From the NCBI RefSeq assembly GCF_965363235.1, contig NC_134850.1, positions 44,512,602 through 44,576,601 on the forward strand: a DNA stretch of 64,000 nt. Direction: 5' to 3'. The position numbers were made by a program, and so were the translations under genes. A model generated the notes under the pieces. It was not told where the DNA came from. It did not search any database and was given only the letters and a program-made list of their open reading frames with translations. The stretch comes from Mytilus galloprovincialis. Its lineage: Eukaryota > Mollusca > Bivalvia > Mytilida > Mytilidae. Of the stretch, positions 8,606-63,257 are shown piece by piece (position 1 is the stretch's first letter; each line of letters starts with the position of its first letter).

Positions 8606-11600
8606 GTGAGGAGATCTGTCATTATACCCCTTGCATCTGACCATTATGGTGCACATTTATATACCAATTTTGAGTTGTTATAAACAAATGAATGACACCG
8701 TTTGACATGAGTTCGATGACAATGTCATTGAACAATCTGTTCTAAATGAGGCGTAATTTTATCGGAGAAGTGTTATTGTCATGTCATATATTTTCATATC
8801 ATCCATATTTCATCGGTTTGGATTACACACACACAGTTTGTGATGTGTTTTTCAGTTTCTATATATGAATATTACAGACTTTGGGAATAGCAAGGATTGA
8901 GGAGATTACATACAGACAGATAAACATGATAAAAACACATCTGCTTCCATTTCTACATTCTAATCGGACAAAGATGACGTCACAAACAAAAATACACATT
9001 GCTGATAAAAGGGGAACAACTCTCTTACACACAGAAACATAATCCAACCATACAATACATACTCAGTATGTTATATATCAGTATTACTGATATATTACAT
9101 GAAACAGCAACAACACTACAACTTGACAAATTTAAAACATATTCAAAGTCACTTTAAAAGACGTAAGAACAAATTTGATAAAACTGACCATAAAAAATAA
9201 TCTAATGACATCTTGAGATCAGGAAATAGTCTTCAACAGTATGCTTCTAACACTAAGACTATTTATGATAAGGTACCTTGAAATGACTAATTAAGAATAA
9301 CAAAAAATTAAAATTCTGTAAATTTATTGTTAATTTTCTTTTTAGGACCACAGCATATCCATGGAGGTGTAACCATGCATGTTCCTCGCCATGATTCATT
9401 TCCAAGTGTCAGACATAAGAATAAAAGAAGCTATGGAAAGGCATGGTTTAAAGAGAAAGAATATGAAAATAAAATCAACATAGAGAAGATAATGTCAAAA
9501 GGAATCAATTATAAAAATGTTAAAAGCTCTTCCACATTTGAGGGAAAGGATCAGCCCTATCTTCATATTGGTAAGCTTAATTAAAGATATCTGTAAACAA
9601 ATTTGGTAAAGAGATTATGAATATATAAGAAAAATAAAGTTTAGAGCAAGCTGTCATGAAAAGAAATGTATTGTAAATTTAAGAGAAATATATAGTTTAG
9701 CGTGCACTGACATTACAGAAAGAATTTTTTTTAGTATATATAGTTGAACGCATAGATGAAATAAAAAGAAACCTCAACGAAATGAACAGGAACATTGATA
9801 TATGGTAACTTTTATGGAAATAATGTGGTTTATTTTCTGATTTCATGTTTTTGAGGCTCAATAAAGTAAAAAAGTATTTATGAACAAAAAGAAAAGAACA
9901 TATCTATGGTCTAGATAAGTGAAGTCAAATTTGTTTAAAATAAAATTAAAAAAAAATGTCCTAAGACTCGTCAAAGTAGTTTGCATCACATTCTCAAGTC
10001 ACTGCTGTCATATTCACAAATCTACCATGTCTGCAATGAAAAAGAAAATCCTAAAATAAAATGCATTTACAGCTGATTTCCTAATGCTTGCAAAGTAAAA
10101 CTTTTTTTGGCTTGCTTGCTTTATTTGTATAATTGTTAATACTTGTAAGCTTTGTAAATAAGATTGACATCTTTAAACAGTATATATATAGGCATTTTTT
10201 AACCTGAATATATTATTATACCCCACGCAACGAAGTTGCGGAGGGTATAATGATTTTGACCCGTCCGTCCGTCAGTCCGTCCGTCAGTCCTGTTTCTTGT
10301 CATCGCAACTCCTCTCAAACCACACAACAGAATTTCAGGAAACCTTTTCAGATAATAAGGACATACTATGTAGTTGTGCATATCGACGGGAAATTGCGAT
10401 TCAATTTTTTTTCTAGGAGTTATGCCCCTTTGAACTTATTTACTTTAATGTACTACTGCAACAGTTTGTCATCGCAACTCCTCTCAAACCACACAACAGA
10501 ATTTCACGAAACCTTTTCAGATAATAAGGACATACTATGTAGTTGTGCATATCGACGGGAAATTGCGATTCAATTTTTTTTCTAGGAGTTACGCCCCTTT
10601 GAACTTATTTACTTTAATGTACTACTGCAACAGTTTGTCATCGCAACTCCTCTCAAACCACACAACAGAATTTCACGAAATCTTTTCAGATAATAAGGAC
10701 ATACTACGTAGATGTGCATATCAACAGAAAATTACGATTCATTTTTTTTTCTAGGAGTTATACCCCTTTGAACTTATTTGCTTCAATGTACTTCTGCAAC
10801 AGTTTGTCATCGCAACTCCTCTGAAAACACACAACAGAATTTCATGAAATTTTGTAGATAATAAGGACATACTATGTAGATGTGTATATTGACAGGAAAT
10901 TATTATTCAGTATTTTTTCTTATACAATTTTTTTTTCTTATATACTTATTTAATTTCTCCAATGACAATGTGGGGACGTGGGGTATTTGAGCGTGCTCAC
11001 TAAGGTTCTTTAATATTTGAATTTAATTTGGTGTTATCCTATGGATTGTACAATATAAAAACCAAGCTAGCAAGCAAGCTAACCAAAGTTTTGTTCTACA
11101 TGCATTAGCGAATTAGCTGTAAATATTTAATTTATACTTAACAAATATACGGAAATGCTGAAGAAATAAATATTCATTACTATTTTCAAAAGTTGATGGA
11201 AGATACAACAAATGTATGTCAGATCAGTGAGTGTAGCTCAACAGATTATTAGGCAATATCTTTTAAAGAGTTTAAATTTGATCAATTATGAGTGCAAAAA
11301 CTTGTACATGTTCATATTGGATTTGTTTGGCTTTTTTCTTGTCCTTTATTTTTATTTTACTTGCAAGATGATATTGTCACCATTTAAACTTAATGACAAA
11401 ATATTTTAAGAATTTAATATCCCCTTGCAAATTATGCTAGAATTTTCCACTTTACAATACACTGAACATTGCTGAACCTTGAATTTTAAGCTTTTTATTG
11501 TATTAGCATATTATTAATACTTCTCTTTCTATATTATCAGATGGATGGGAAAATCAGTTAAAGAAATTTCAGAAACAGATTTCACATCAATCAGCTGCTA

Positions 11601-14600: not shown

Positions 14601-17600
14601 AAGCTACCTTGGAAGACAGACACAAATGGATGTAGAAATGGGACAGGAAATACTAAATGAGATCAGTTCTCTGGTATGTACAGAAAACATTAAAAATTTA
14701 AGTACATGGAGATCTGTTGATAACATTTAATATATCATGTAAATTATATATATATTTTTGTGTTTGGATTTTTAAGTGCTTTAAATGTCTCACTGTTAGC
14801 ATTGTTGTTTGACCTCTTCTCAGTTTCTGAATGATTCACTGGTAAAAATAAATATGAATAGGAAAACTTTACTATATTTTTTTTGCTTCTCTAAGGTTGT
14901 AGAAAATATTTGAAAATGTGAAATGAAATAAGAAAGAAAAAAATGTTGGGACAGAGGGATGACAATAAATTGTATTTGAATATTGTTTTTTTGCAGGGTT
15001 ATGATGTAAAAAATATTTTCAATGAATGTGTGATGAGAAAAAATGAGAGGCAGATTATTTTAAATGTAAGTATATAATGAGTATACGAATAAATATAGCA
15101 AGGTCTTATGAAAACAACTCACTCATTTTTGTCGAGCCTGCAACTTTTGTTGCAGAAAGCTCGACCTAGTAATAGTGATCGGCGTCGGTGTTAGCTAACT
15201 TCTTAAAAGCTTTATATTTAAGAAGGTGGAAGACCTGGATGCTTCATACTTTGTATATAGATGCCTCATGTTACGAAGTTTCCTTCAGTCACATGTCCAA
15301 TGTCCTTGACCTCATTTTCATGGTTCAGTGACCACTTGAAAAAAAAGTACAGATTTTTTGTAATGTTGAATTCTCTCTTATTTTAAGTAATAGGATAACT
15401 ATTTGGTATGTGCATACCTTGCAAGGTCCTCATGCCCATCAGACAGTTTTCACTTGACCTCAACCTCATTTCATGGATCAGTGAACAAGGTTAATTTTTG
15501 GTGGTCAAGTCCATATCTCAGATACTATAAGCAATAGTGCTAGTATATTCGGTGTATGGAAGGACTGTAAGGTGTACATGTCCAACTGGCAGGTGTCATC
15601 TGACCTTGCCCTAATTTTCATGGTTCAGTGGTTATAGTTAAGTTTTTGTGTTTTGATCTGTTTTTCTCATACTTTATGCAATAAGTGTACTATATTTGTT
15701 TTATTGAATGATTGTAAGGTGTACATGTCTAGCGGGTAGATATCATCTGATCTTGACCTCATTTTCATGGTTCAGTGGTCAAAGTAAAGTTTTTGAGTTT
15801 TGGTCTTTTTATCTAACACTATATGTCATAGGTCAACTGTATTTGGTGTATGGAAATATTTTATGATCTATGTCAGTCGCACAGGTTTTATTTGACTGTG
15901 ACCTCATTTTCATGGTTCATTGCACAGTGTTAAGTTTTTGTGTTTTGGTCTATTTTTCTTAAACTATAAGTAATAGGTCAACTATATTTGTTGTATGGAA
16001 GCATTGTTAGCTGTACATGTCTGCCTGGCATAGTTCATCTGATCTTGACCTCTATTTCATGGTTCATTAGTCTTTGTTTAGTTATCTTGGTTAATGTTAA
16101 GTTTATGTGACAGTTGTAATAAAGCTTTATACTTAGGACTATCAACATAATATCAATGATTAGTAAAAGAAGGCGAGACATTTCAGCGTGTGCACACTTG
16201 TGGTTATAAAAAAATGAGTTATATTAAAGATAATGCTGATTTCAGTTTAATATTGATAATCCTACTTGTCAAATGAAATCTTTTGAAAATGCACTTATAT
16301 TCTTGATGCTTTTGGAGGATTACTCTTTGAAATAACAAAATTTCTTTTAATTCCAAACATGTAATGATCTTTGCATTACAGTTTGCAACACTTAGAAAAA
16401 TGAGGAAAAGAATATGCACAATTCTATTAGTATTACTGAATGACGATTTCAACATCACAATAGATAATGACATGTTTTAAAGGGAAATAATTGTGTTTAG
16501 ATGTGTTTTTAGTATGGTTGTCTCCCCTTGCTGTTAATGATTTCATTGTTATTATTTCTATACAAACATATTGTTTATACATATATTTATATATAAGTTT
16601 GCAAAAAAAATGTATGTCTTTTCTATGAATCTATCTTCTTTCATATTAATGGCAGATACTAAATTATTTTTTCCATACAATTATTTCATTTAAACATCAC
16701 ATTTTAGCTTAAAATTAGTTGATAGGTGATTTTATTTTAGTTGAGATATAACTTGAGCCACTTATACCTTTTAATACTATGAAACCATATCTTTTCAGGC
16801 TTTAAATCAGTTGATAGAGGACTTTGTACCAAATTCTCCAGAGGGACCACGGCCATATTCTGGACCTCTTCTCCAGCCTCTTAATGAACAAGTTGATTTA
16901 TCTCAGGCAAGTTATAAAGTCTGCAATATAAAGTCATTTTTTAGGCTTCATCTAAAACAATTGTAACATGTAACTAGATGTACTGAATAAGTAGTTATTT
17001 AACCACATCTTTGCCTAAAATGATGGAGTTGTATATAACTTCAAAAATTTTCTTCTGAACAATCATTCTGTTATACGAAATGAGTGATAAGTGGTTGTTA
17101 AGTTTTCTGTGTTATAGCTGTGAAATAGAAAAAAATCACATTCAGTAATAAGAAATAATTTGTAAAATGTAGAATAAATTTATTTGTTTTGTTTGTACAA
17201 AAGTGATTATTTATACAAAAGTAAACAATATCCTGCATATACAGTCCAGAAAAATCTCCTGTATCATGAATTATTGATTCTTTTTAGCTCACCTGGCCCA
17301 AAGGGCCAAGTGAGCTTTTCCCATCACTTGGCGTCCGGCGTCCGTCGTCGTCGTCCGTCGTCGTTAGCTTTTACAAAAATCTTCTCCTCTGAAACTACTG
17401 GGCCAAATTAAACCAAACTTGGCCACAATCATCATTGGGGTATCTAGTTTAAAAAATGTGTGGCGTGACCCGGTCAACCAACCAAGATGGCCGCCACGGC
17501 TAAAAATAGAACATAGGGGTAAAATGCAGTTTTTGGCTTATAACTCAAAAACCAAAGCATTTAGAGCAAATCTGATATGGGGTATAATTGTTTATCAGGT

Positions 17601-20600
17601 CAAGATCTATCTGCCCTGAAATTTTCAGATGAATCGGACAACCCGTTGTTGGGTTGCTGCCCCTGAATTGGTAATTTTAAGGAAATTTTGCTGTTTTTGG
17701 TTATTATTTTGAATATTATTATAGATAGAGATAAACTGTAAACAGCAATAATGTTCAGCAAAGTAAGATTTACAAATAAGTCAACATGACCGAAATGGTC
17801 AGTTGACCCCTTTAGGAGTTATTGCCCTTTATAGTCAATTTTTAACAATTTTTCGTAAATCTTAGTTATCTTTTACAAAAATCTTCTCCTCTGAAACTAC
17901 TGGGACAAATTAATCCAAACTTGGCAACAATCATCTTTGGGGTATCTAGTTTTAAAAATGTGTGGCGTGACCCGTTCAACCAACCAAGATGGCCATGGGC
18001 TAAAAATAGAACATAGGGGTAAAATGCAGTTTTTGGCTTATAACTCAAAAACCAAAGCATTTAGAGCAAATCTGACACAGGGTTAAATTGTTTAGCAGAT
18101 CAATATCTATCTGCTCTTCAATTTTCAGATGAATCTGACAACCCGTTGTTGGGTTGCTGCCCGTGAATAGGTAATTTTGCTGTTTTTGGTTATTATCTTG
18201 AATATTATTATAGATAAAGATAAACTGTAAACAGCAATAATGTTCAGCAAAGTAAGATTTACAAATAAGTCAACATGACCGAAATGGTCAATTGACCCCC
18301 TAAGGAGTTATTTTCCTTTATAGTCAATTTTTAACAATTTTCATAAAATTTGTAAATTTTTATTAACATTTCCACTGATATTACTGGGCCAATTCATTAT
18401 AGATAGAGATAATTGTAAGCAGCAAGACTGTTTAGTAAAGTAAGATTTACAAACACATCACCATCATCAAAACACAATTTTGTCATGAATCCATCTGCTT
18501 CCTTTGTTTAATATTCATATATACCAAGGTGAGCGACACAGGCTCTTTAGAGCCTCTAGTTTTTTTTGCAAATTCTCTATAGAAGAAATATTTTACTCTA
18601 GATAAAGAATATTATGATTAGATAAAATATACTGACTCTCTATTTCTTTTATAGATGGAACATTGCATTTAACATGTTAAGATTTGCATAACATTTTATG
18701 AAACCTTTTATTAACACATAACAGCAAGAAAAAAAAAAGTCTTCAATACAGCAGGATAGTTAGATATATAAAAAAATGATAATAGACTGAATATATCATC
18801 TTTTCAGCATTGTATCCTATAGACTTAGGTATAAGTTTGGATAAATTCAGGGAAAGTGTCAATATTTGAAATGAAAAATATACATGTAATTTTAGGTACA
18901 AGAAATGAACCCTTATCATGGTGTTGTCACACCTGAATATCTTCTTGAGCAGACCAAAAAACAGATGAACCTTGAGAAAAATGATGTTATATATGTAAAA
19001 ACGATAGAGAAGAAACGACCCTTGACAGAGATGGACATTGAAATGGTATGGTTGAACTTTTATGAAGCTACTTTTAAATCATTTTAAATTCCGTTTGAAA
19101 ATATCTAACAAAATCAATATTAATTTTATACATATAGAGAAAAGTAAGTTATTCAGATTTTACTTTCGTGTGTTTCAGGTTAAATGGTGTGGTCAAGGTA
19201 GTTTTTGATGAAGTTGAAGTCCAATCAAATTGAAACTTAGTACACTTGTTCCCTATGATATGATCTTTTTAATGCCAAATTATAGTTTTTAACCGAATTT
19301 CATGGACCACTGAACATAGAAAATGATAGTGCGAGTGGGGCATCTTTGTACTATGGACATATTCTTATTTATTAACTGGCAATGTATAGTACTGCATTAA
19401 TTTAGGTTATATATTTATTGTGTAATGCTTTCATAATACAAAACCTATTTCAGAAAAATAAATTGGAAAAATTGAAAAAGAACTGGAGAAATATTTTACT
19501 GTGTGCTTTTGAAAAAGAAATAGAGCGGTTAGTTAAGTCCGAGAATGGTAAGTATAGATGTTTGTTAGTAAAACTAGGTTTATATATTGAAAGGAATATT
19601 TGAATATTTTATTCAAACACCTTCTGAAGTGTAGGTTCATAAAATTCAAGGAAACAAAATATATTTATGACTTAACTTTAAATGCACAGATTTACAATAT
19701 CAACAGCAGCATATTTTGAATTTGGTTTTGGAAAAAAATAATCATCATGGACAGTTAAAAGCCTATGCTAAAAAAATCTTGAGGACGGATGTTAGTTTGT
19801 TGGAACGGGACAATAAAGGGCTGACCCGTGTTAAGAGAGAGCAATATCTCTTGCACATAAAATAAAGTCTTTTAGATTTTGAAAAAGAGCAGGCTAATGC
19901 CACTATATGGCAGCAAAGTGGAAAGGGATTAATATAAGATGCTATAACTTGTTTCCCAATCTACTATAAATAAATATGTTTACCTAAACTAAAAAAAATC
20001 TGCACAATTTTTACATTCATGCAATTAGACTTTTGTTTACTATAGTCATCAATTTTAGGATATTTCAGAAATACAAATTTTAAAATTTCTTCCAAGAATT
20101 TCAATCCAAATGTTGAAAAGAAGCTTATTTATTGAGATATACTGAATTATTATATAAAATAGATCTCCATGTGTTATTTTATGGTTGTAATTTCAGGTAG
20201 CAGTGATGTTTGCGTCAGTCCATTTTTGAAGATGTTCAAACCAGAAGAATATGTTGACCTAATGATGACTGTGAGTTCCATATATTTTACACAAGGTCGT
20301 AACTTATTTTATAGAATTATTCATACTGATTTGAAATAATTGTCAATATGAATCAAAAGAAATTGGGGATAAGTCAATGAGACTTTTTCCATCAACTGAA
20401 AAAAAATGCATCCAGAGGTGGAAATGTGTCCTTAAACGTAGTGCTCTGTTAATTGGTAATCAATTTTATTAATTATAAATTTGATGCATACACATTCACA
20501 TTGCAACACTACAACAATGTAGAATTACATGAATTAAGGGCTTTATTTAGTATGCACTTTTAAAAAGAACATGAAGGTCAATACAAACATATTCTAAGCT

Positions 20601-23600
20601 CACCTGACACAAAGAGCTCTATGTTTCAGACTGGAAAAAAATTGCATTTTGTAAAAAAAACAAATAATTTCTGTGCAGCATTATAGAAATAATCATATTT
20701 TTGTATTTTTGTCTACTTTCGTGGGTACCAATTTTCTTGTTAGAAGGAAAACTTACATGTTAGTTGATATTATAAGTTATCTACGTTCATATCCGTAGAT
20801 ATGGATATTTTAACACCCTGAAGTATCCAAGTACACCTTGAGGCGTTGCCGAAGGGTGTACAGGGTACTGAAGGGTGTTAAAATATCTATATCTACGGAT
20901 ATGAACGTAGATAACGAATTTATCTCCAGTCTTGGTCCGAATCGGACGAGTTTTAGGGAAATTCGGGTACAAATGTAACATGAAAACAACGTTTTTTTCA
21001 TTATCTAAAAAAGTTTTATTGAAATTTGGAAATTTTACATAGTTTCTTCTGGGTGTAGGGTACTACACCTTTGGTAGAACCCTACAGGTAGTCAAATATA
21101 AGACGTTTTTAATACGGAGACAGATTGAGTCAAATTTGGCACTCAATGTTGTGAGAGCTACGTCATAGATGGTTTGACGTCAACGTGGGTCATTTGCATA
21201 GCTAGGTCAGTAGTCCCATTCCTTGAAAATGTGGTGGTCAAGTGATGCATTTAATGAAATGAGTGTAAATGATCAGCATAATAGGACAAAATTGTAGTAA
21301 AATAAATATTTCATTACAAACATCATGGATAACCTACAGAATTCAATATTTCACAAGGAGCAATCATGGAACGAAGGAAAACGTGTGTGAAGTTCCCCGG
21401 GACAATGATTAGCAACGTCCGGGGATATGGGTTAGCAACACCCAGGGGCTATGGGTTTTGTAACGACGTGCGTTAACCAATCAAAATCCTAGATATATAC
21501 TAAGCCGGGGATAATTAATTTTGTAGTATCGCCAAAGTCTTCACACAAGTTTATAGGAAATTTGTCATTTATTGAGCATTTAATTTTGTGGTTCATGTGT
21601 ACCCAAAAAATCCATGAAAATTGGTATCTGATGAATAATAATAAATCCACAGTAATGTACAATGATTTCTATTTTAGGAAGTGGAACGTTTATGTCTTGG
21701 ATCAGGTGGATACAGTCCGTCTGCAAATTATCTGTGGCTAACATTTGGTAAAAGAATATATCAGATGTGTCTCATAAGGTTCAAAGATACACATGGAATT
21801 ACAGACCAGGTAATATGTCCTCTTCTTGAACATCACCTAGATGATAGGATTGCAATACTTGACAACAACAAAGATGATTGATTATTGTTTTACAGTCACA
21901 TGACCATAGCAGTGACAAAAAAAAATATGTTTACATACAGTGATAACAATAACTTAATGCTAATGCCTTGGCCGAAAAAATTCCTTAGAATGCCAGGAGA
22001 TGCTTCTGAAAAATAATCATACCTTATTTGCCTTTGAAAAATAATCATACCTAATTCGCCTTTGAAAAATAATCATACCTAATTCACATTGTCACCACTG
22101 ATAGTGGTTGCAAATCATTTTCTCTAGATATAACTTTTAGATAAGGGAACACTAGAATGAAGGACACGGTCAAATATTTAGGTTCAACTTTTTTATCTCT
22201 CTGCATACATTTATCTTTAAAAAAAAAGGTATATCCCCTCTCTTACTTTGAACTCAATGGAGTTGGGTAATGAAACTTTTTAATATTATTCATCACAACT
22301 TGCAGATGTGTTGCCTTCAAGACAGAAAAGAAGTTGTGATCAAAAACTTTGATTATCTGCCCTCGATGGATATACTTTAACCGTTCTGGAGTTATTCCCC
22401 TTTTACAGTGTTGTATGCAGGCACAGGCATAAGTTGTTACCTCTTGGGACACATTCTTCATTTGTTACAGCCTACATTTAAATTGTGAATATGAGAAAAT
22501 ATTTTTTATAAAGAGTAAACAGATGTTAAGTTTTTTAACTGACCATTATTGAAAGATTTAGTATTTGAAAAATGACTTTTATTTTGTAGATATTAAAGCA
22601 ATACAATGATTTTGCTGAGTTGTATACAAGAGAAGATTTCCCTTTTAACAACCAGAGAGAATGTTGGCAAGAACTAGGTCAAAAATATATAGATGGCCCG
22701 TCTGCTGTAAGTACTGTTATAATTTATTCAGTCAATAACATGATTTTTGTGTCTTAATTTAAATTAGAAAATAAGGTGATGGTATAGGATTGCCATTAAG
22801 AAAACTTTCCAAGAATTGTGTTTATCAGTACAGATTAGTGAAGGTCTTCAACAATGAGCAAAACCTAAACATTTTAAGTTTTAATCTGTCTCAGCATAAC
22901 AATAGTGGAAACAATTCACAAGAGAATGTCAACGTATATTTGTTCCGCCTAACAGAAGTTCCACTGGAAACTTTGTTATAAACAATGTTATAATATCTAT
23001 TCCTGTTGGAACAAATATTCTATACCATTTATTCCGTTAGGAACATATACTGTAATATTTATTCCAATGGAAATAATATCAAATCAGTAGCTGAAATGAA
23101 CAATAAATGTCTATCCCTTCTGTAACTTAACCAGGGCTTCCAAAACGGTCATATATTCCGGTCACTTGTATAATGTCTGGTAAAAGTCTGGCTTTGCAAA
23201 GCATGAAACTATCATCTACTTTTTAGTTTTCAAGGCTTTTTCGGACATTTTAACATAATTCACAATCTTTTTGACCCAACCTTTTGCCTTTAACATCCAC
23301 ACATTTCCAGTCATAAAAGTGACATGATGATTAATTACTATCAAAACAACCCCTACTTCAATACTTTCTAATTTTAATCAAGGCTAATTAATTGTTGGAC
23401 AGCTGAAATCTACCTGTTCAGGTGACATCAAATATTTGAATAATATCATAAATTTTGTTTATTTCTTCAGGATCTGTCCATGAAAAGATGGTCTGACCAG
23501 TTGAAGAAAAAAGTAAGTAGTAAAAGTGAATATTAAATTTTGCAATTTTTCAAATGTTTCTAAACTTTTCATTTCATTGTTTAAAATAAAATGCCATTTT

Positions 23601-26600
23601 TTCTGAATTTTACTTATAAATGGAATTTAGTTTTTCTTCAAGGAAACATAACATTCACTCTGTGATTCAAAGTTTTTTTAAAAATTTTAATGACTTTCTT
23701 AAACTATCCTGGATTTGTACCAAACTTGGACAGAAGCTTGTTTATATCATAAGTATCCAGAAGTAAATTTTGTAAAAAAAAATACTCCATTTTTTTCTTA
23801 TTTTACTTATAAATGGACTTAGTTTTTCTTCCAGTTAACATTGCATACAGTCTACAGTCAAAAATTTTAATACATTTATGAGATTCATAAACTATCCTGG
23901 ATTTTGACCAAACTTGGACAGAAGCTTCTTGCAATCAAAAGATAGTATCGAGAGCATTTTTTCACTTCATTTTGTTTAAGCATAAGTATAAGTAGGCGAG
24001 ACTGGGTTTTCGCAGAACCCTTACCAATTTTTACCAAAGTATATAAAGTAGTTCTATCATCATATTTGGTTGTCCAGCTCAGTCATGTATTTTGTATGTT
24101 AGACTTATTGATGTCAGTCTGTATGATCTTTAAGGCAGTTATTCAAAGTCGACACTTAACATTTGTGTATTTTTAGATTGGGAAGACTTTATATGAGTTA
24201 ATAATGTACAAGTTAACCATAGATGGTAGTGTATTAAGTGATGACGGACCAGAACACAATGGCAGGGAACATACCAAGTGAGTACCAGTAAAACTTTAAA
24301 CGATAGAGACTAAACCAACTATACTTTACAGCTTATTTCCTATTGCTTGTAGAGTAAAAATTTGGATGGCTTGCTTGCTTTGTTTGTATAAACATTTACC
24401 CAAGATTTGTAGTTAAGATTGACATATTCAAACAATATATAGAGGCATAGTTGAACCTGTATATTATATTATTTAAATTTGATTGGACGTTATTCCAATC
24501 ACAATTGTACAATATACAAACAAAGCAAGCAAGCTAACCAAAGTCTTGCTTTACATACATTAGGAAATTAGCTGTAAAGAAAACTAAATAGATCCAGAGG
24601 ACAATGTGAATAAAAGCAAGTAAACTTATTCACTATATTCTGCCATGTAATGAACTATTAAAAAAGTGGAAAATTACTGAAGACAACTTATGTAAGCTTT
24701 GTAAAGAAAAAGATAACTATGAACACTTTTTTGTCAACTGCTTATTTAATACAGACTTCCTAAAAATAGCAATGAAATTAATGAACTCCCTAGGTATAGA
24801 CAAAAACATTATAAGTCTTGAAAATCTAGTAATAGGGTACAAAATTGAAGACTCAGCATACTTTGATATTAACTACATACTAACAATAATATCCTTTTCA
24901 TTATATAAAGCATATTATGTCTCAGAAAAGAAAACAAAAAAAATAAACATTTTGAAAATTTTCCAGAAAGAAATTTCAGATATTATTGAAATGAACAATT
25001 TTAATAACAAAAATAATAGTAAGACAATTCTAAAAACAAATAGATTCATTGAAGATTTAAAAAAAAAATATTAGAATTAAATCAATTAAATGTTCGAAAC
25101 ATTATTTTATAAAAAGTACAAAACATTGTAATTTGAAACACAATTGTTAATTGTTTACAAGCCATATATGGTCATGTTTATTCACAGGTTCAATCATGCA
25201 TGTCGGAATGTGTTACAGTTTGTAAAAATGTTCAACCATGCATAAGTAACGACATGGTACATATTGTTGTTTTATTCATAAACATTATAGGAAAAAAAGA
25301 TAAACATGTGTAATCACGATTATTTAATAATTTATTCTAGTGTAGACAAATTGTGAATTGTGCACGCTAAAATGATTGACTTAACTTGTGTAATACATAT
25401 ACACGACGACATACAATAGATCAGTAGAAACTTAAACAAAAATTGCATACTTACCAAATTTTATAAAATAAGTTAAATCCTGTTTATGTAAGAATATTTA
25501 GACACAATCGATAAAGCGATATAACGCACATGCTTGCTGAACCAACACTAACTTTGCCCAATTTCTTTCAATGGAATACGGATCATTTGATAAAATCGAT
25601 AACGGAAAAGATTCCGGAAAAGGTACTAATGTATAAAAAAAGGAAAGAAATTATTTAACGAAGATCTGTATGTGTATTCACAATATTTATTTTATATAAT
25701 TGTGAAATCAATTGTACTATAGATACTAATATTATGAATAAGTTATATCTTACCAAATAGTGCTTCCCTAAACTATTAGGTAAACTAACATGAGGGATAC
25801 TAAGTTACAAGCTGTAAACTTAGTAAATTGTTACAGCAAATATGCAATAAAGATATTATTACGTTTAAAAAAAAAAAAAAAAAAAAAAGCAAGTATGGGG
25901 TATACATCAGTGAGACAGTAGCCCAATGACAAAACTAACCAAAACATCTTCAACAATATACCATTTACAATATCATCAGCTGTAAATGGTTCCAAGTCTG
26001 TAAAAGTTGCGAATAAATTCAGCATAATATCCAAAGGTTTCCCGTCAATGCAAATTTTCCAAATAACCAAAACATAAGATAGATATAGGAAAATGTGGTG
26101 TGAGTGCCAGTGAGACAACTCTCCATCCAAATAACAATTTAAAAAAAAAAATAGGTCAATGTACGGCCTTCAACACGGAGCCTAGTATGATATATGACAA
26201 CCATTGCTTTATTAAAAGGCTTCACTGTTAAATTGTACTTATTTACTTTTTTAAAAGAAATGAATTATTTGATCTTATATTAAGGAAATTTTGTTTAAAG
26301 TTTTCATATAAAACATATTTAAGTTACTCTTATCAATTGGAAAAGTGAAATAAAAGGGAAAAGAAGCCCCTGACAGCACCAAAAGGGGAACAAAAGAACA
26401 GAGAATGGATTTTACAATGAGAAACTACAGTACTTAAAATTAAATCTTTTGAAAATTAGAATTCCAATGAAAAACTAGCAGTGAAATCTGGATTTTTATC
26501 TTGTATTTTACAGAAATGAGATTCCAGCAATTTACTGTCTTTTCTTGTATTTTACAGGAATGAGATTCCAGCAATTTACTGTCTTTTCTTGTATTTTACA

Positions 26601-44550: not shown

Positions 44551-44554
44551 TATT

Positions 44555-46257
44555 AAGTCTCCCAAACAAAGTTTGGAGACTTATTGTTTTTGCTCAGTTC
44601 TTATTATTTTTATTATTCTTCTTCTTCTTCCTCTTCTTCCGCCACTTTAAAAATGAACTTGTCCGCAACGTTTCTCCAAAACCGCTTGTCAGATTGACCT
44701 AGAATTTCATAAAATTGGTAGACTATTTCAGATGAATCAGACAACCTGTTGTTGGGTTGCTGCCCCTGAATTGGTAATTTTAAGGAAATTTTGCTGTTTT
44801 TGGTTATTATCTTGAATAATATTATAGATAGAGATAAACTGTAAACAGGAATAATGTTCAGCAAAGTAAGATTTACAAATAAGTCAACATGACGGAAATG
44901 GTCAGTTGACCCCTTTAGGAGTTATTGCCCTTTATAGTCAATTTTTAACCATTTTTCGTAAATCTTAGTAATCTTTTACAAAAATCTTCTCCTCTGAAAC
45001 TACTGGGCCAAATACTTCCAAACTTTAACTGAATGTTCCTTAGGGTATCTAGTTTGTAAATTGTATCCGAAGTTGTGATCTATCAACAAACATGGTCGCC
45101 ATTGCTAAAAATAGAACATAGGGGTCAAATGCAGTTTTTGGCTTATAACTCAAAAACCAAAGCATTTAGAGCAAATCTGACATGGGATAATATTGTTTAT
45201 CAGGTCCAGATCTATCTGCCCTGAAATTTTCAGATGAATCAGACAACCTGTTGTTGGGTTACTGCCCCTGAATTGGTAATTTAAAGAAATTTTGCTGTTT
45301 TTGGTTATTATCTTGAATATTATTATAGATAGAGATAAACTGTAAACAGCAATAATGTTCAGCAAAGTAAGATTTACAAATAAGTCAACATGACTGAAAT
45401 GGTCAGTTGACCCCTTTAGGAGTTATTGCCCTTTATAGTCAATTTTTAACCATTTTTCGTAAATCTTAGTTATCTTTTACAAAAATCTTCTCCTCTGAAA
45501 CTACTGGGCCAAATACTTCCAAACTTTAACTGAATGTTTCTTAGGGTATCTAGTTTGTAAATTGTATCCGAAGTTATGATCTATCAACAAACATGGTCGC
45601 CATTGCTGAAAATAGAACATAGGGGTCAAATGCAGTTTTTGGCTTATAACTCAAAAACCAAAGCATTTAGAGCAAATCTGACGTTGGGTTATATTGTTTA
45701 TCAGGTCAAGATCTATCTGCCCTGAAATTTTCAGACAACCTGTTGTTGGGTTGCTGCCCCTGAATTGATAATTTTAAGGAAATTTTGCTGTTTTTGTTTA
45801 TCATCTTGAATATAATTATAGATAGAAATAAACTGTAAACAGCAATAATGTTCAGCAAAGTAAGATCTTCAATTAAGTCAATTTGACCAAAATTGTCAAT
45901 TGACCCCTTAAGGAGTTATTGCCCTTTAAAGACTTTTTTCACAATTTGTTCATCATGTTGACTTACTTTAAAAAATCTTCTCCTTTGAAACTGCTGTATC
46001 AATTTCAGCCAAACTTAGGCTAAATGAGTTTCAGAGTATCTAGTATAAATTTTATATTTTATTACCTTGTATGTCAAGAAACATAGCTCCTATGGCTAAA
46101 ATAGAACATAGGAGAAAATGATTATTTTTTTTGGCTTTTGAAGAAAATAGGACGATCCAAAAAACATTTAAATAAATTGAAAAGCCAAAATAATCATTGA
46201 TGAGAGATTTAACCAAAAGAATTAAGGTGAGCGATTCAGGCTCTTGAGAGCCTCTTG
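44555..46257 (+). mobile_element. Element A3, chimeric 5' end with family A body and 3' end
   Basis: It starts with a different hairpin, AAGTCTCC...GGAGACTT, then a TTC microsatellite (about 44620-44640). It then runs into family A internal units, of which about two and a half are present. It ends AAGGTGAGCGATTCAGGCTC, hairpin GGCTCTTGAGAGCC, TCTTG. The body and 3' end match A1 and A2 but the 5' terminus does not, so the element has exchanged its 5' end. Confidence 0.78.
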
Positions 46258-46874
46258 TTTTTCTTCAAATTCATACAGATTATGATATGATACAAGTGAC
46301 ATAGCTTTAAATGGTTATCGCCAGCTGCTGCCATCGAGTCGGTGCTATAGTCTGATATTTATGGCAATTTTTATGCCAAATCTCAAATATGGCTTAATCA
46401 TTTGTGTTCACCTTTATCTTGCAGTACAAATGACCACCAAATGAACTGTACTAAGAATTTTTTGGAGGGGTTATGACGGTATACTCTGTTACAATGTATA
46501 TTATATATATGGTTAACAATATTACATTTTATGCTGTAACGACTGATAAAAAATATAATTAGATGGTGTACAATTACTAATGGGGCTTCAATTCAAAAGA
46601 TCAAAAGACAAGGTTATGAACTACTAATTATCACCATATAATCTCAACACAACGAGCAAAATCCAAACTGTTTAGTATGAAAGCTATAAAAGTCCTCAAT
46701 ATACGGCATCAAATAAAACATAATTTTGTAATATAACCAACAACATTATTTGAAAAAAAAAAAAAGTCACAGAATGCAAGACATAGTCAGTACAATGACA
46801 TTAACTGTTTGTATAAAGCTGTAATTGAAAGATTGCTTGTGTAATGAAGTTTTTATCTGTCTTATCTCCTTTTT
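46258..46874. other. Intergenic between elements A3 and A2
   Basis: AT-rich, with no gene, no hairpin and no tandem repeat recognised. Confidence 0.4.
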
Positions 46875-47962
46875 AGCTCACCTGGCCACAGCTAAAAATA
46901 GAACATAGGGGTAAAATTCAGTTTTTGGCTTATAACTCAAAAACCAAAGCATTTGAGCAAATCTGACATGAAGTAAAATTGATTATCAGGTCAAGATCTA
47001 TCTGCCCTGAAATTTACAGATAAATCGGACAACCTGTTGTTGGGTTGCTGCCCCTGAATTGGTAATTTTAAGGAAATTTTGCTGTTTTTGGTTATTATCT
47101 TGAATATTATTATAGATAGAAATAAACTGTAAACAGCAATAATGTTCAGCAAAGTAAGATTTACAAATAAGTGAACATGACTGAAATGGTCAGTTGACCC
47201 CTTTAGGAGTTATTGCCCTTTATAGTCAATTTTTAACCATTTTTCGTAAATCTTAGTAATCTATTACAAAAATCTTCTCTGAAATCACTGGGCCAAATTA
47301 AACCAAACTTGGCCACAATCATCATTGGGGTATCTAGTTTAAAAAATGTGTGGCGTGACCTGGCCAACCAACCAAGATGGCCACCACATCTAAAACTAGA
47401 ACATAGGGGCAAAATTCAGTTTTTGGCTTATAACTCAAAAACCAAAGCATTTAGAGCAAATCTGACAGAAGTAAAATTGATTATCAGGTCAAGATCTATC
47501 TGCCCTGAAATTTTCAGATGAATCAGACTACCTGTTGTTGGGTTGCTGCCCCTGAATTGGTAATTTTAAGGAAATTTTGCTGTTTTTGGTTATTATCTTG
47601 AATATTATTATAGATAGAGATAAACTGTAAACAGCAATAATGTTCAGCAAAGTAAGATTTACAAATAAGTCAACATGACTGAAATGGTCAGTTGACCCCT
47701 TTAGGAGTTATTGCCCTTTATAGTCAATTTTGAACAATTTTTCGTAAATCTTAGTTATCTTTTACAAAAATCTTCTCTGAAACTACTGGGCCAAGTTCAT
47801 TAAAGATAGAGATAATTGTAAGCAGCAAGAATGTTCAGTAAAGTAAGATTTACAAACACATCACCATCACCAAAACACAATTTTGTCATGAATCCATCTG
47901 CGTCCTTTGTTTAATATTCACATAGACCAAGGTGAGCGACACAGGCTCTTTAGAGCCTCTAG
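46875..47962 (+). mobile_element. Family A2 HINE/Helitron-like element
   Basis: It begins AGCTCACCTGGCCACAGC, a shortened 5' end lacking the second half of the A1 hairpin, and carries two internal units. It ends AAGGTGAGCGACACAGGCTC, hairpin GGCTCTTTAGAGCC, TCTAG. The 3' end is the same as A1. Confidence 0.8.
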
Positions 47963-48615
47963 TTTCGACCTCATTTTCATGGTTCAGTGATGGCTTTTGA
48001 AAAATGTATTTAATTTTTCTTGTAAAGTACTTGTGTACGGAGCATAGAATAACTATTTGATATATGGGATCCTTGCAAGGTCTACATGTCTGTGTTAGAC
48101 AGGTCTTGCCTAAGTTGTTGACCTCATTTCATTGATCAGTGATCATAACTTAATTTTTCCTGGTCAGGTTATTTATATCCTATTCCTGTTAACTGCAATA
48201 GGTCATTTATACTCATTGTGAGGTGTTAATGTCGACTGACTGTTTTCGTCTCACATAGACCTCATTTTCAAAGTTTATTGGCCAAGAAAGTTTTTGTGGT
48301 TAGGTCTGTTCCTATGCAATGCATGATTGTAAGGTGTTTTTCTGAGTAACCTTGTTTTCATGGTTCATTAGTCAACATTAAGATTTTGTGGTTTAATGCA
48401 CTCATCAGATACTATTAGGCAAACTATGTTTGGTGTATCATATGGTATGATTGGAAAGTGTAAAATATCTATGACCTTGACCTCATTTACATGGATCATT
48501 GATAATGTTAAGTTATTTGGGAAACTTGTAGTAGAGCCATCATATTACAGACTTTCAACATAATATTAGTCCTGATAAGTTAAGCAGGTGAGACACTTGA
48601 GTGTGTGTGCACTTA
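47963..48615 (+). mobile_element. Family B3, 5'-truncated, abutting A2
   Basis: It starts at the base after the A2 terminus with CGACCTCATTTTCATGGTTC, diverged family B units, and ends AAGCAGGTGAGACACTTGAG followed by GTGTGTGCACTTA. The 5' hairpin is missing. Confidence 0.72.
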
Positions 48616-48617
48616 TT

Positions 48618-48868
48618 TTCATTCCCCACTTAGGGGCATTGTGTTTATCAGTCTGTTCATCCGTTTGTCCCTCTGTCCCACTTCAGGTTAAAGTTTTTGA
48701 TGAAGTTGAAGTCAAATCAACTTGAAACTTAGTACACATTATCCCTTTATAATCTTTCTAATTTTAATGCTAAATTAGAATTTTAACCCCAATTTCACAG
48801 GCCACTGAAGTTGAACACAGAAAATAAAAGTGTGAGTGGGGCATCCGTGTACTATGGACACATTCTTG
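48618..48868 (+). mobile_element. Family D2, complete short element
   Basis: The 5' end carries CCCCACTTAGGGG, then TCTGTTCATCCGTTTGTCCC microsatellite-like sequence and a GATGAAGTTGAAGTC core. The 3' end is GTGAGTGGGGCATCC...GGACACATTCTTG. CCCCACTT and AGTGGGG are subterminal inverted repeats. It follows A2 and B3 head to tail. Confidence 0.75.
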
Positions 48869-49148: not shown

Positions 49149-49152
49149 TTAA

Positions 49153-49412: not shown

Positions 49413-49416
49413 TTAA

Positions 49417-51965: not shown

Positions 51966-51976
51966 CTTTTCAGCAC

Positions 51977-52415: not shown

Positions 52416-52679
52416 TGTTATGTTTATCTTTTAAATACTGGTTAATGAAATCATTACAGTGTGTACTGGCTGGTCATTATCGTGTATGATACGATTTTGA
52501 CATGCCTACATAGTTAATGAATATGTATGACTATAGATAAGAACAGCACGTGTAGCCATAAACTGAGGGTTGTAGATTTGTAGCGTAAATGTTTAAATGT
52601 AGTTTTGAGAATATAGAAAAGATACAAAAATATTGTTTTTAATTATTAGTATCCGAGCAAGTAAAACACGGATCTATCA

Positions 52680-54849: not shown

Positions 54850-55074
54850 TGTTATGTTTATCTTTTAAATACTGGTTAATGAAATCATTACAGTGTGTAC
54901 TGGCTGGTCATTATCGTGTATGATACGATTTTGACACGCCTACATAGCTAATGAATATGCATGACTATAGATAAGAACAGCACGTGTAGCCATAAACTGA
55001 GGGTTGTAGATTTGTAGCGTAAATGTTTAAATGTAGTTTTGAGAATATAGAAAAGATACAAAAATATAGTTTTT

Positions 55075-55131
55075 ATACGACCGCAAAATTTGAAAAATTT
55101 TTCGTCGTATATTGCTATCACGTTGGCGTCG

Positions 55132-55163
<32 letters not shown>

Positions 55164-57070
55164 CTGCGTCCGAATACTTTTAGTTTTCGCACTCTAACTT
55201 TAGTAAAAGTGAATGGAAATCTATGAAATTTCAACACAAGGTTTATGACCACAAAAGGAAGGTTGGTATTGATTTTGGGAGTTTTGGTCCCAACATTTTA
55301 GGAATTAGGGGCCAAAAAGGGCCCAAATAAGCATTTTCTTGGTTTTCGCACTATAACTTTAGTTTAAGTTAATAGAAATCTATGAAATTTTGACACAAGG
55401 TTTATGACCACAAAAGAACGGTTGGGATTGATTTTGGGAGTTTTGGTTTCAACAGTTTAGGAATTAGGGGCCAAAAAAGGGCCCAAATAAGCATTATTCT
55501 TGGTTTTCGCACAATAACTTTAGTTTAAGTAAATAGAAATCAATGAAATTTAAACACAATGTTAATGACTACAAAAGGAAGGTTGGTATTGATTTTGGGA
55601 GTTTAGGTCCCAACAGTTTAGGAATTAGGGGCCAAAAAGGGACCCAAATAAGCATTTTTCTTGGTTTTCTCACCATAACGTTAGTATAAGTAAATAGAAA
55701 TCTATGAAATTTAAACACAAGGTTTATGACCATAAAAGGAAGGTTGGTATTGATTTTGGGAGTTTTGGTCCCAACAGAATAAGGGGCCCAAAGGGTCCAA
55801 AATTAAACTTTGTTTGATATCATCAAAATTGAATAATTGGGGTTCTTTGATATGCCGAATCTAACTGTCATGACTGTGTATGTAGATTCTTAACCTTTGG
55901 TCCCGTTTTCAAATTGGTCTACATTAAGGTCCAAAGGGTCCAAAATTAAACTTAGTTTGATTTTGACAAAAAATGAATCAGTTAGGTTCTTTGATATGCT
56001 GAATCTAAAAATGTACTTAGATTCTTGATTATTGGCCCAGTTTTCAAGTTGGTCCAAATCGGGGTCCAAAATTAAACTTTGTTTGATTTCATCAAAAATT
56101 GAATAAATGGGGTTCTTTGATATACCAAATCTAACTGTGTATGTAGATTCTTCATTTTTGGTCCTGTTTTCAAATTGCTCTACACTAAAGTCCAAAGGGT
56201 CCAAAATTAAACTTAGTCTGATTTTAACAAAAATTGAAATCTTGGGGTTCTTTGAAATGCTGAATCCAAAAATGTACTTCGATTTTTTATTATGGGCCCA
56301 GTTTTCAAGTTGGTCCAAATCAGGATCCAAAATTATTATATTAAGTATTGTGCAATAGCAAGTCTTTTCAATTGCACAGTATTGCGCAATGGCAGGAAAT
56401 ATCTAATTGCACAATATTGTGAAATAGCAAATTATTTTTTTAATTAGAGTTATCTTTCTTTGTCCAGAATAGTAAGCAAGAAATATCTAATTGCAAAATA
56501 TTGTGCAATAGCAAGATTTTTTTTAATTGGAGTTATCTTTCTTTGTGCAGAATCAACTTAAATCTTTGTTATATACAATATACAATGTATATTCACTTTT
56601 TACAACCAACTGATAAATTAAAATAATCTTTACCATTCAGTGATAACAAGCAGTTTTTTTACATCTTAATATTTTATGATGTATTTAAATGAGTAGTTAT
56701 TGTTGCAAACTCCATTAGAAATTTTAATTGAGATTAGTTTTGGAATAAGGGAAAGAGGAATGTGATTAAAAAAATTGGGTTCAATTTTTTTCATTTGAAA
56801 TTTCATAAATAGAAAAGAAAATTTCTTCAAACATTTTTTTGAGAGGATTAATATTCAACAGCATAGTGAATTGCTCTAAGAGAAAACAAAAAACTTAAGT
56901 TCATTAGAACACATTCATTCTGTGTCAGAAACCTATGCTGTGTCAACTATTTAATCACAATCCAAATTTAGAGCTGAATCCAGCTTGAATGTTGTGTCCA
57001 TACTTGCCCCAACTGTTCAGGGTTCAACCTCTGCGGTCGTATAAAGCTACGCCCTGCGGAGCATCTGGTT
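55075..57070 (+). mobile_element. Family Y pearl/HINE-like element nested in LTR2
   Basis: The 5' end is ATACGACCGCAAAATTTG, followed by a GTC microsatellite of about nine units (55132-55162). Four units at about 161-bp period follow (TTTTCGCACTATAACTT type, near 55182, 55341, 55502 and 55663), then four shorter units with TTAAACTTTGTTTGAT. The 3' end has CTGCGGTCGTAT, inverse of the 5' ATACGACCGCA, then an imperfect hairpin GCTACGCCCTGCGGAGC and ATCTGGTT. Open frames on both strands are translations of these repeats. Confidence 0.85.
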
Positions 57071-57113
57071 AATTATTAGTATCCGAGCAAGTAAAACACG
57101 GATCTATCATGAC

Positions 57114-57349: not shown

Positions 57350-57880
57350 TATATTTTTTTTCTGGGACACCGAAGTCATAACCCTGAAGCCATTTTTTAC
57401 GTCTGGACTTTTATTTATTTTGCTCTCAACTTGATATATCCTAGAACTCCCAAGAAACATCACTTCCAGTGAATGTAAAATATCAAACTGGGTAAATTGA
57501 AATGGACCCGAAATTTCCAGAACGTTTGATTTACATTATCAGGAAATTTGGGTCTGTCAAATTTTACGGAGTTTAATATTTTATACTCTTCTGTCTTCGG
57601 AAGTGACGTATTTTGGGAGTTCTTGGATATCATGTTGACACAAAAAAAAATATTTGTCCACCTCATTTTTGGAAATATTTTGCATCAATAAGCACAAAAA
57701 AGGTAAAACTTTGTAACTACAAAAAAAATTCTGGCCGGTAATGAAAATTTCATGTCAAAATTTTTGACATGAAATTATTATTAGGTGGCAAAGTTCCCCC
57801 CAAAATTGCTCTCGAAGTCCAGACGTAAAAAAATGGTTCAGTGTTATGACGTCATCGGAAGGTGTTCTAGAAAAAAAAGC
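57350..57880. repeat. Complex foldback repeat W
   Basis: Outer arms GAAGTCATAACCCTGAAGCC and GGTTCAGTGTTATGAC, plus TTTTACGTCTGGACTT and AAGTCCAGACGTAAAA, are inverse copies (57372-57420 and 57812-57855). A second pair inside (CTAGAACTCCCAAGAAAC at about 57440 and TTTTGGGAGTTCTTGGAT at about 57611) is offset from the outer centre, so the structure was rearranged. The palindrome TTTCATGTCAAAAATTTTTG / GACATGAAA lies at about 57749-57774. Two open frames of 68 codons here are by-products of the repeat. Confidence 0.72.
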
Positions 57881-59390: not shown

Positions 59391-59410
59391 AATTAAATCT
59401 ATCAAAATTG

Positions 59411-60890: not shown

Positions 60891-61236
60891 CTTGCTCAGG
60901 TCTCTTACTTTTTGTTCTGTTTCTGTTTATCAAATGTAACTGCTCAACGGAAATAGACCCCAACAGCACCTGTACTTCTTCTAGCTGCCTTATGCACTCT
61001 CTGAGTTGGTGTTTTCTTAACACATCTCTCTTATTCTCTAAGACCTTTAACTCCCCCTCGAGCTCTATATCAAAATACTGAGTAGGACAAACGTCACCAG
61101 GACGCAATTCTTCACATAATCTTCTTGTTCTTCTGGTGTAGATGATGAATACAACCAGGAGATCGCTGTCTTGCCCATACTGCTGAAATAACTGAACAAC
61201 AGAATCTGATGTATCTAAACTGTTGATATATTTCAA
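60891..61236 (-). CDS. Unrecognised partial gene, helical protein exon
   Basis: The minus-strand frame reads VVQLFQQYGQDSDLLVVFII, then RRTRRLCEELRPGDV, and ELEGELKVLENKRDVLRKHQ, followed by ECIRQLEEVQVLLG. Its balanced composition, amphipathic helical or coiled-coil segments and a good donor (GAGCAAG|GTGTATG at 60891) suggest a real internal or first exon rather than chance. An acceptor-like ATATCAACAG lies near 61218, so the true exon may start there and not at the ATG. I recognise no family and see no partner exon with confidence. Upstream exons would be beyond 61240, downstream ones below 60890. Confidence 0.5.
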
Positions 61237-61449
61237 ATTACTTCACAGAACAGGAAAACATTATTTAAGTTCAAAAATTACAAATCTATATTCAAAACTA
61301 TTGAAATAGTTGATCGAAGCCTCAAATAAAACTTCAAAAGTTCAAATCTAATAAAAAATCCTTAAATCTATCGAAATTGTTGAGATCATCAACTCTAAGT
61401 CCAATAATTCAAATCTAATATTTTCCTCTTATTAAATCTATCCAAATCA

Positions 61450-61690
61450 TTGATTGACGCTTCAAATCGAAAATAGATACATTTATTATATAAAAGAAAT
61501 AAGTATTTACCTTGTGAAAACTAATTTTTGAAGTGAAAATTGCAGGTATATAATTTAACAGAAAATGCAAGTGAGTAGATTTCAACATCATAAATCATAA
61601 AATGTATAACTGATCTTTGGTAAACATTTTTGAAACAGTGAAGTAGAATTAAGAATCTTGCAAGAAATTAAATTTTTTCTCTGTAATTAA
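61450..61690. repeat. Right copy of the local duplication, uninterrupted
   Basis: It is continuous where the left copy (59411-60670) carries element X. Both copies keep TTTTCACAAG|GTAAATA on the minus strand, which has the form of a donor site. Confidence 0.8.
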
Positions 61691-62601
61691 TCATTTTTTT
61701 AAAATAAAAATTGCCAAATTTAAACTTCATTCTATTAAAATATCATGCATTGTCATTTATTTGTTAACAATTAAAATTTTGTGAAATTTCTAGTTTGTAG
61801 CCGGTCAGACTACTGTGATGAAAACTTTACTAGCCCTCGATAATTTTTAATAGCCTCGGGCTAGTGGACCATTGTTAGTGTCAAACACTGAATTGGCCAA
61901 AATATCAAGTCAAACTATTACCCAAACCCTATAACATTATATAAAGTAAATCTTCACCAAAGAAAAGCTGAAAGGTTCTACCCGATACCTGATAACTACT
62001 ATCCATCAGATACTGGATTTTTATAAACAGCTTACAGCAACATGAAAAAAAAGAATTAAACAAACGTAATCACTAAACAATACACAGACAGAAAAGATTG
62101 ATCTACAAATAGTTCCCAAAAAAGCAATGTATATATATATTTGTTCCATATTTACTTTATATATAGAATAGAATAGAATATTTGTATTTCCCAAATTACA
62201 GGGCCCATAAACCGAAGGGCATAAAATCAGATAAAATTGATTTACATAATTGGTAATACATGTACTCCAAAGTCACAAATATAAAGGTACAAATGTAAAA
62301 ACTATTATTTTTTAGTAGAAAAAAATATTTTTGCTCTCTTTTTCTCTTAAGGGGGGGGGGGGGGGCCTTGGTGGTATACATTATTTTTTTTTTAGATATA
62401 GGATTTTGCTATATTTTTCTATATAAATGAACTTTATCGTATACTTTATAGAAAAATAAAATAAAAAAGTGGGGTCACCGTTCATTTAAGCTCACAATCT
62501 GCCTTCGAAAAAAGCATACATTTTTGTAAAGGTACTTTTTTTCTGTTGAACTAATGAGAGAAATAGAGGTTACACAAATGTATATCTGAATAAAAAAATT
62601 T
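61691..62601. other. Intergenic, low complexity
   Basis: No gene seen. A run of 15 G lies at 62351-62365. GAATA/TAGAA microsatellite sequence is near 62166-62182. Confidence 0.45.
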
Positions 62602-63257
62602 GTAAGGGTTCCGCGGAACCCAGTGGCTCGCCTACTTTTGCTGTTAATCACACACTCATCAAAAATGATGAAAAAAATCAATAAAATTATACCTCTCGAT
62701 ACTATCTTTTGATTGTGAGAAGCTTCTGTCCAAGTTTGGTAAAAATCCAGGCTAGTTTAAGAATCTTAAAAATGTTTTAAATACTTTAACTGCAGACTGT
62801 ATGTAATGTTAACTGGAAGAAAAACTAAGTCCATTTATAAGTAAAATACGGGAAAAATGGAATTTTATTTTTACAAAATTTACTTCTGGATACTATCTCC
62901 TGATCATAAACAAGTTCTGGCCAAGTTTTGTACATTTCCAGGATAGTTTAAGAAAGTTATTAAAATTTTAAAAACTTTAACCACAGAGTGAATGTAATGT
63001 TTCCTGGCAGAAAAAAACTAAGTCCATTTATAAGTAAAATACGGAAAAAATGGAATTTTATTTTTACAAAATTTACTTCTGGATACTATCTTATGAACAT
63101 AAACAAGCTTCTGTCCAAGTTTCATACAATTCAAGGATAGTTTAAGAAAGTTATTAAAATTTCAAAAACTTTAACCACAGAGTGAATATTGTGGCCGACG
63201 CCGACGGAATGTAGGATCGCTATGTCTCGCTTTTTCGACTAAAGTCGAAGGCTCGAC
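62602..63257 (-). mobile_element. Family C1 HINE-like element, minus strand
   Basis: Read on the minus strand, it starts GTCGAGCCTTCGACTTTAGT with a CTTCGACTTTAGTCGAA hairpin, then GCGAGACATAGCGATCC and CCGTCGGCGTCGG. About three units near 190 bp follow, and it ends AGTAGGCGAGCCACT, the perfect palindrome GGGTTCCGCGGAACCC (62607-62622) and TTAC. It is non-coding. C2 at 23570-24033 is a 5'-incomplete relative. Confidence 0.8.

Follow-up and report, generated by a model that had tools for sequence, protein, structure and literature searches.

Canonical Helitrons follow a Rep/helicase logic, carry a 3' hairpin and a CTRR-like end, and insert between A and T (A^T). The pearl elements of oyster and mussel have the same general architecture as the families described below. 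Helentrons are rolling-circle transposons with Rep and helicase functions, some of them with a fused endonuclease. HINEs are deletion derivatives of such Rep/helicase/endonuclease elements; HINE/DINE-1 elements have subterminal inverted repeats (subTIRs), a 3' palindrome and flanking Ts without duplication, as set out in the sections of PMC4067079 drawn on here. In Crassostrea gigas, 11 HINE families have been described, some with related flanks and unrelated arrays, and a large part of the dispersed satellite-like DNA of oysters resides in HINEs; the Cg_HINE families could not be connected with any of 10 autonomous elements from the oyster, and the pearl elements CvE/MgE are known from oyster and mussel (sections of PMC7492417 drawn on here). 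The corresponding sections of PMC12628747, PMC11136912 and PMC10294476 present no HINE parent, and the Helentron literature, at the level of titles and the beginnings of abstracts, yielded no bivalve HINE-parent pair, a level at which priority cannot be claimed.

The window, by which we mean the whole stretch of Mytilus galloprovincialis DNA that was analysed (C13:44512602-44576601, 64,000 nucleotides), holds five families, B, C, D, E and Y, in which both ends could be read (Table 1); genome-wide counts are from the 1.385 Gb genome. The five share one plan, in which a 5' subterminal inverted repeat is followed by a tandem array and, close to the 3' end, by the inverse repeat. A 5' fragment at 44553-44725 represents a sixth end type. 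Both ends were read directly and by scanning fetched loci, and each is exact only to 1-2 bases. A previous sequence-only reading had proposed at least seven such families; five were found with both ends, together with the sixth 5' fragment, which may be its family A, but A and G, for which no coordinates had been given, were not located as such. The limits it had set, 10217 and 63257, mark the beginning of E and a position one base short of the outer limit of C. Tandem periods measured by TRF are 169 (10297), 147 (15444 and 27027), 161 (55183) and 191 (62683), which bears out the periods of 147 (B), 161 (Y) and 169 (E) proposed earlier and refines the approximately 190 bp proposed for C. The D unit is about 500 bp by self-comparison, in which E and Y proved to be single-copy within the window.

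Table 1. Elements and related features in the window (positions count from its first base)
Feature	Position	Strand	Characteristics
B copy, older, diverged	2966..3707	-	72%
E element	10217..11014	+	5' hairpin TATACCCC..., GTCC-type microsatellite, 169-bp units; in the 3' part inverse GTGGGGTAT, palindrome GAGCGTGCTC, end ...CTTTAA(T)
B element	15130..16201	+	147-bp units
D element	17285..18559	+	5' hairpin TAGCTCACC..., ~500-bp units, 3' end AGGTGAGCGACACAGGCTCTTTAGAGCCTCTAG
C copy without 5' end	23583..24032	+	
B element, second copy	26630..27705	+	91% to first; 44-bp tandem repeat alongside
5' end module of a further family	44553..44725	+	AAGTCTCCC hairpin and TTC-rich stretch; fused to D-type unit
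D'	44726..46257	+	D-type units; end AGGTGAGCGATTCAGGCTCTTGAGAGCCTCTTG, a clade f type 3' end
D copy, 5' hairpin mostly missing	46874..47962	+	
B-like copy, truncated	47966..48618	+	abuts 3' end of D copy
Intact LTR, empty site of the Y insertion	52416..52679	+	other LTR, 54850-57109, holds Y
Y element	55074..57069	+	5' hairpin TATACGACC..., CGT microsatellite, 161-bp units; in the 3' part inverse GCGGTCGTATA, 3' palindrome, end ...CATCTGGT
C element	62600..63258	-	191-bp units; 5' end TGTCGAGCC at 63258; 3' palindrome GGGTTCCGCGGAACCC at 62606-62621

The subterminal inverted repeats are exact in E (ATACCCCAC/GTGGGGTAT), Y (TATACGACCGC/GCGGTCGTATA) and D (GCTCACCT/AGGTGAGC), and those of B and C pair at 8/10 bases. 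The 3' ends of B, C, D, E and Y mark real genome-wide families. With at most one mismatch, 5797 ends of B, 7976 of D, 716 of E, 6166 of Y and 2068 of the D'/f type were counted; looser matching gave 1503 for C and 234 for the autonomous type of clade c (at most two mismatches each) and 818 for the j-type (at most three). Reversed 3'-end patterns gave no match in any of the eight genome-wide searches (B, D, E, Y, C, D'/f, clade c and j). Other structures in the window were considered as further families and set aside in the absence of the HINE plan: a foldback at 24324-24579 seen in self-comparison, palindromic stretches at 20776-20915, 28560-28705 and 57404-57660, and an inverted minisatellite pair near 5322 and 7836. 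The members of this pair, at 5322-5431 and 7727-7836, are inverted 110-bp repeats, 95% identical, with a TGGAGTG minisatellite and about 2.3 kb apart. Exons of a mitochondrial RNA polymerase-like gene lie at 12960-42230 and 50556-51968, with several of the elements between exons; one exon, when tested, gave a match to solved POLRMT (E 2e-18). On the minus strand of the window there is a flavin amine oxidase-like gene.

To define the ends, as had been recommended, 20 copies were compared, comprising nine of E, two of Y, three of C, two of B, two of D and two of autonomous D. The left flanking base is T in 20/20 copies and the right flanking base in 17/20, the three non-T right flanks being located where the end is called only to within 1-2 bases; of all dinucleotides in the window, 13.4% are TT. 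The ends read T^TATACCCC...CTTTAA(T)^T for E in nine copies (eight loci, one with a nested pair, the window copy included), T^TATACGACC...CATCTGG(T)^T for Y, T^TGTCGAGCC...CTTG^T for B, and T^TAGCTCACC...CCTCTAG^T for D, with TTTAG in one copy; those of C read T^TGTCGAGCC...CCCTTACAA, the next base being A, A and T in the three copies. Flanking direct repeats of at least three bases occur in 7/20 copies compared with 23.4% of swapped pairs, of at least four bases in 6/20 compared with 15.5%, i.e. about twice as often, and of at least five bases in 1/20 compared with 2.9%. The six repeats of at least four bases are TTTT (three), TTAT (two) and TATTTTT (one), a composition to be expected where a T-rich target adds Ts to both sides. 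Consistent target duplications had been named in advance as an observation that would speak against a Helentron origin; insertion is at T^T, and no duplication of fixed length or of varied sequence was found in the 20 copies compared.

Y has an exact empty site. It lies inside the 3' LTR of an LTR element whose LTRs, at 52416-52679 and 54850-57109, are 98% identical over 226 bp and 100% over 43 bp, with a 4-base duplication, TGAC, on both sides. When the flanks of Y are joined (...aaaaatatagtttttaattattagtatcc) and compared with the intact sister LTR (...aaaaatattgtttttaattattagtatcc), they differ by one substitution, with no gain or loss of bases. The LTR element itself (52416-57109) is short, with LTRs of about 264 bp and an interior of about 2.2 kb, and is possibly TRIM-like. 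For E, removal of a nested copy at locus L007 restores the interior of the outer E save for one extra T and small differences, a comparison that fixes the end of E only to within one base. The window copy of E splits a foldback repeat (10066-10219 and 11011-11123, with GGCTTGCTTGCTTT ends) of which an uninterrupted copy lies at 24324-24579; the two foldback copies are too diverged for this empty site to be read exactly.

Hairpins were folded as single-stranded DNA and scored against 200 shuffles. The expectation of 5' hairpins holds for B, D, E, Y and the 44553 module, whose 5' ends fold better than every shuffle (0/200 as good), but not for C, where 37/200 shuffles fold as well. At the 3' ends, the number of shuffles folding at least as well, of 200, is 6 for D, 6 for j, 9 for k, 17 for clade c, 22 for D', 28 for f, 34 for h, 40 for Y, 51 for C, 115 for E, and 115 and 196 for B. 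Given these counts, the 3' palindrome is in most families a matter of constant position and not of strong folding; the small 3' hairpin predicted for the window families is constant in place, but its fold clearly beats the shuffles in D only. Similarity between ends was assessed by local alignment against 300 shuffles, with only pairs at p of at most 0.02 considered. The 5' ends of B and C are related (0/300 shuffles reach the score), those of D and its parent described below are near-identical, and D, D'/f and c show kinship at the 3' end (0/300). Weaker 3'-end likenesses, between B and C (p 0.01), C and c (0.02), and D'/f and k (0.007), may be due to chance because many pairs were tested. 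The claim that the families share little end sequence therefore holds only in part, given the likeness of B and C at the 5' end and of D and D' at the 3' end. In this set, the families outnumber the end lineages.

Rep proteins were surveyed with Helitron_like_N, which gave 138 match rows (146/146 candidates scored), many of them in open frames of 2000-3100 aa. DNA downstream of 24 Rep loci was compared. These loci fall into 13 provisional clades, lettered according to DNA alignment and the ranges and scores of Pfam matches and not according to a tree. For clades c, f, h, j and k, 3' ends could be located where the alignment of second copies stops abruptly. In clades d, e and l, similarity continued up to or almost up to the limit of the fetched sequence, and the end was likewise not reached in a and b, so that 5/10 clades with two or more copies are without a called 3' end; clades i, m and o have one copy each.

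An autonomous Rep element carrying the ends of a window family, as the sequence-only reading had advised searching for, was found for D. Two Rep elements, spanning about 19.1 kb (C2:32796411-32815490) and about 16.6 kb (C4:52324545-52341177) between ends (5' parts from L061/L062, 3' ends from L041/L054), bear both ends of D, and their Rep matches lie within open frames of 2665 and 2652 aa. These clade c copies (C2:32808548 and C4:52334176) end in AAGGTGAGCGACACAGGGTCCTTGGACCCTCTAG^T, where their mutual alignment stops, and their 5' ends lie 12.1 and 9.6 kb upstream of the Rep match, with the sequence T^TAGCTCACCTGGCCCGAAGGGCCAAGTGAGC and a similar CGTCC/CGT microsatellite. In the window D, the first 1108 bases align with the 5' part of the C2 element at 88% identity, and 1055 bases align with the C4 element at 85%. 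D has a 3' hairpin with the stem AGGCTC/GAGCCT and the parent one with AGGGTC/GACCCT, a single base pair having been exchanged on both sides. With the same two ends and the same 5' array, the clade c Rep element is identified, on comparison of the DNA, as the Rep-encoding and putatively autonomous parent of D.

The association extends beyond these two copies. On contigs C1-C5, a clade c-type 3' end lies 6.3-7.5 kb downstream, on the same strand, in 14/18 clade c Reps and in 1/37 other Reps; the remaining 4/18 clade c Reps have no such end within 10 kb among the matches listed. From the opposite direction, the first 100 of the 234 clade c-type ends (exact matches, on contigs C1-C6) include 15 with a Rep 3-10 kb upstream on the same strand, compared with a random mean of 0.033 and an opposite-strand control of 0; the other 85/100 are presumably non-autonomous or decayed copies. 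The end of the clade c frame shows weak matches to endonuclease/phosphatase families (7.7e-5 and 2.8e-4, both under curated cut-offs); PF14529 reaches 23.0 bits against a cut-off of 27.4. A PF03372 endonuclease match above the cut-off is present in clades a and d, and no endonuclease match was found in the tested frame tails of clades b and j. A 47-bp satellite of 31 copies lies directly beside the 3' end of the autonomous D copy at L041 (3515-4996), and the left flank of L061 matches its unit.

No parent of E, C or Y was found downstream of the 24 Reps, and B could be connected with a Rep only through its array and 5' module in clade f; a Rep partner with both ends was recovered for D alone. 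The 24 downstream stretches (17 + 7 scanned) contain none of the 3' ends of E, C or B, and those of Y occur in three (L041, L044 and L066), in each case beyond the end of the Rep element. The 19 Reps on the stretch covered by 100 listed exact E ends are without such an end 3-15 kb downstream, a search that a parent with an altered hairpin would escape. L045 holds a copy of E without a recognised 3' end, and E-like stretches at L049 were set aside as an apparent old fragment and a distinct family whose TATACCCC end is similar. Separately, at L066 a clade j Rep element (from 912) lies inside an apparent Y element, with a Y 3' end at 1279. At L039 (1976-7361), an 882-bp unit occurs about six times after a clade a Rep frame and contains a hairpin and ATT-rich stretches resembling a 5' end; this repeat may represent truncated elements in a rolling-circle tandem.

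The module at 44553-44725 forms the 5' end of a family whose members are about 1.3-1.45 kb long. A j-type 3' end lies about 1.3-1.45 kb downstream in 7/8 places with a 44553-type 5' end (C1, C2), the eight being those of the 40 scored module places on the stretch where j-type ends were listed. The module's AAGTCTCCCAAA is the inverse of TTTGGGAGACTT at the 3' end of j, and a clade j Rep lies 4.2-4.8 kb upstream of 3/16 exact j-type 3' ends. Roughly the 173 bp of the module are matched by the other 39/40 scored places (40 scored of 2462 candidates). The junction of the module with the D-type array (44553-44850) was found only in the window among these 40 of 2462, which gives no sign that the fused element is mobile. 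Immediately ahead of the clade f 3' end stand a B-type 5' module and a B-type array (86% over about 650 bases); the two are present in 2/2 clade f copies compared and have moved with that end. The 3' end of B itself differs from that of clade f, and clade f is therefore no more than a candidate parent of B. The clade f copy at L065 has a second, diverged B-like 5' module at 2002-2700, a stretch that also holds, by eye, an apparent repeat of window positions 3790, 14306, 26079, 34422 and 37966.

The window thus contains a mosaic of a j-type 5' end, a D-type array and an f-type 3' end. Because of this mosaic, and because a B-type module and array travel with the clade f end, we tentatively raise the idea, ourselves doubting it more than we believe it, that Helentron ends and arrays are exchangeable cassettes between coexisting Rep lineages. 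If so, new HINE families would arise by terminator swap, and different enzymes could move one array. Of the questions raised here, this possible exchange between lineages is the most promising.

Taken together, the data make it very probable that B, C, D, E and Y are HINEs derived from Helentrons, and that several Rep lineages each recognise their own pair of ends. The Helentron reading proposed earlier is upheld by the shared plan, by T^T insertion without consistent duplication, by the empty site of Y and by the Rep-encoding parent of D. Rep would nick at the T beside the 5' hairpin, displace one strand and stop at the 3' subterminal repeat and palindrome, after which the strand would be joined between two Ts. 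The strong 5' hairpins of B, D, E, Y and the 44553 fragment would suit MITEs or foldback elements that depend on a cut-and-paste transposase, and pearl was originally classed as a MITE (sections of PMC7492417 drawn on here). The inverted repeats are nevertheless subterminal, no consistent target duplication accompanies them, Y has an exact T^T empty site and the parent of D encodes a Rep; cut-and-paste movement is already contradicted for D and Y and is most improbable overall.

As to the number of enzymes, the sequence-only reading had left a choice between several transposases and a single one with relaxed recognition of ends. Insertion at Ts throughout, and the similar last bases of D, D', B, j and k (CTAG or CTTG before T), would fit one relaxed Rep moving all families. 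That alternative is nonetheless unlikely, given that the D/c end follows clade c Reps so much more often than others (14/18 against 1/37, C1-C5), that j ends follow j Reps, and that c, f, h, j and k differ in their 3' ends, even if those of c and f show kinship. The window would accordingly display end types or arrays of three Rep lineages, with D belonging to clade c, the 44553 5' end to clade j, and the D' 3' end and B-type array to clade f; because D, the 44553 end and the B-type array track these three lineages, several rolling-circle enzymes are favoured over one. For E, C and Y, it may also be that they are relics whose parents have been lost from the genome, as the failure to find a parent downstream of 24 Reps or among the listed E ends would suggest. 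Against such a loss, which we regard as a minority possibility, identity to the window copy over the query is 96-99% in the other 39/40 best E places, suggesting recent movement of E, and the 3' ends of 5/10 Rep clades with two or more copies were not reached. Under the preferred reading of HINEs served by several Rep lineages, the crowding of families in one gene suggests parallel Rep lineages and not one promiscuous enzyme. The D/clade c pair, with both ends matched, makes end recognition testable, in terms of which Rep moves which ends and whether it is pairing or sequence that is needed in the 3' hairpin.

With canonical Helitrons, the window families have in common the Rep/helicase logic, a 3' hairpin (in most families by its place more than by its fold) and, in D (CTAG) and Y (CTGG), a CTRR-like end; unlike them, they insert at T^T and not A^T, and possess subterminal inverted repeats and a 5' hairpin. 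Likened by general architecture, E may belong to the pearl CvE/MgE group. The Cg_HINE families of the oyster have the same 5' side, with a subTIR, an adjacent inverted copy and a microsatellite followed by a central satellite-like array, and the same 3' side, with a subTIR and then a palindrome; they too have an oligo-T target without duplication and many families per genome, but none of the 10 autonomous oyster elements could be tied to them, whereas D has its parent here (likened by description and not by sequence; sections of PMC7492417 drawn on here). HINE/DINE-1 elements and Helentrons share with the window families the subTIRs, the place of the 3' palindrome and the flanking Ts without duplication, and HINE/DINE-1 are known from mites, flies and other hosts, where some are more than 95% identical to their partner, compared with 85-88% for the D array (sections of PMC4067079 drawn on here). 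The window families are an already known kind of element, Helentron-associated HINEs, to which the present analysis adds an exact empty site for Y, a parent for D and evidence for several Rep lineages.
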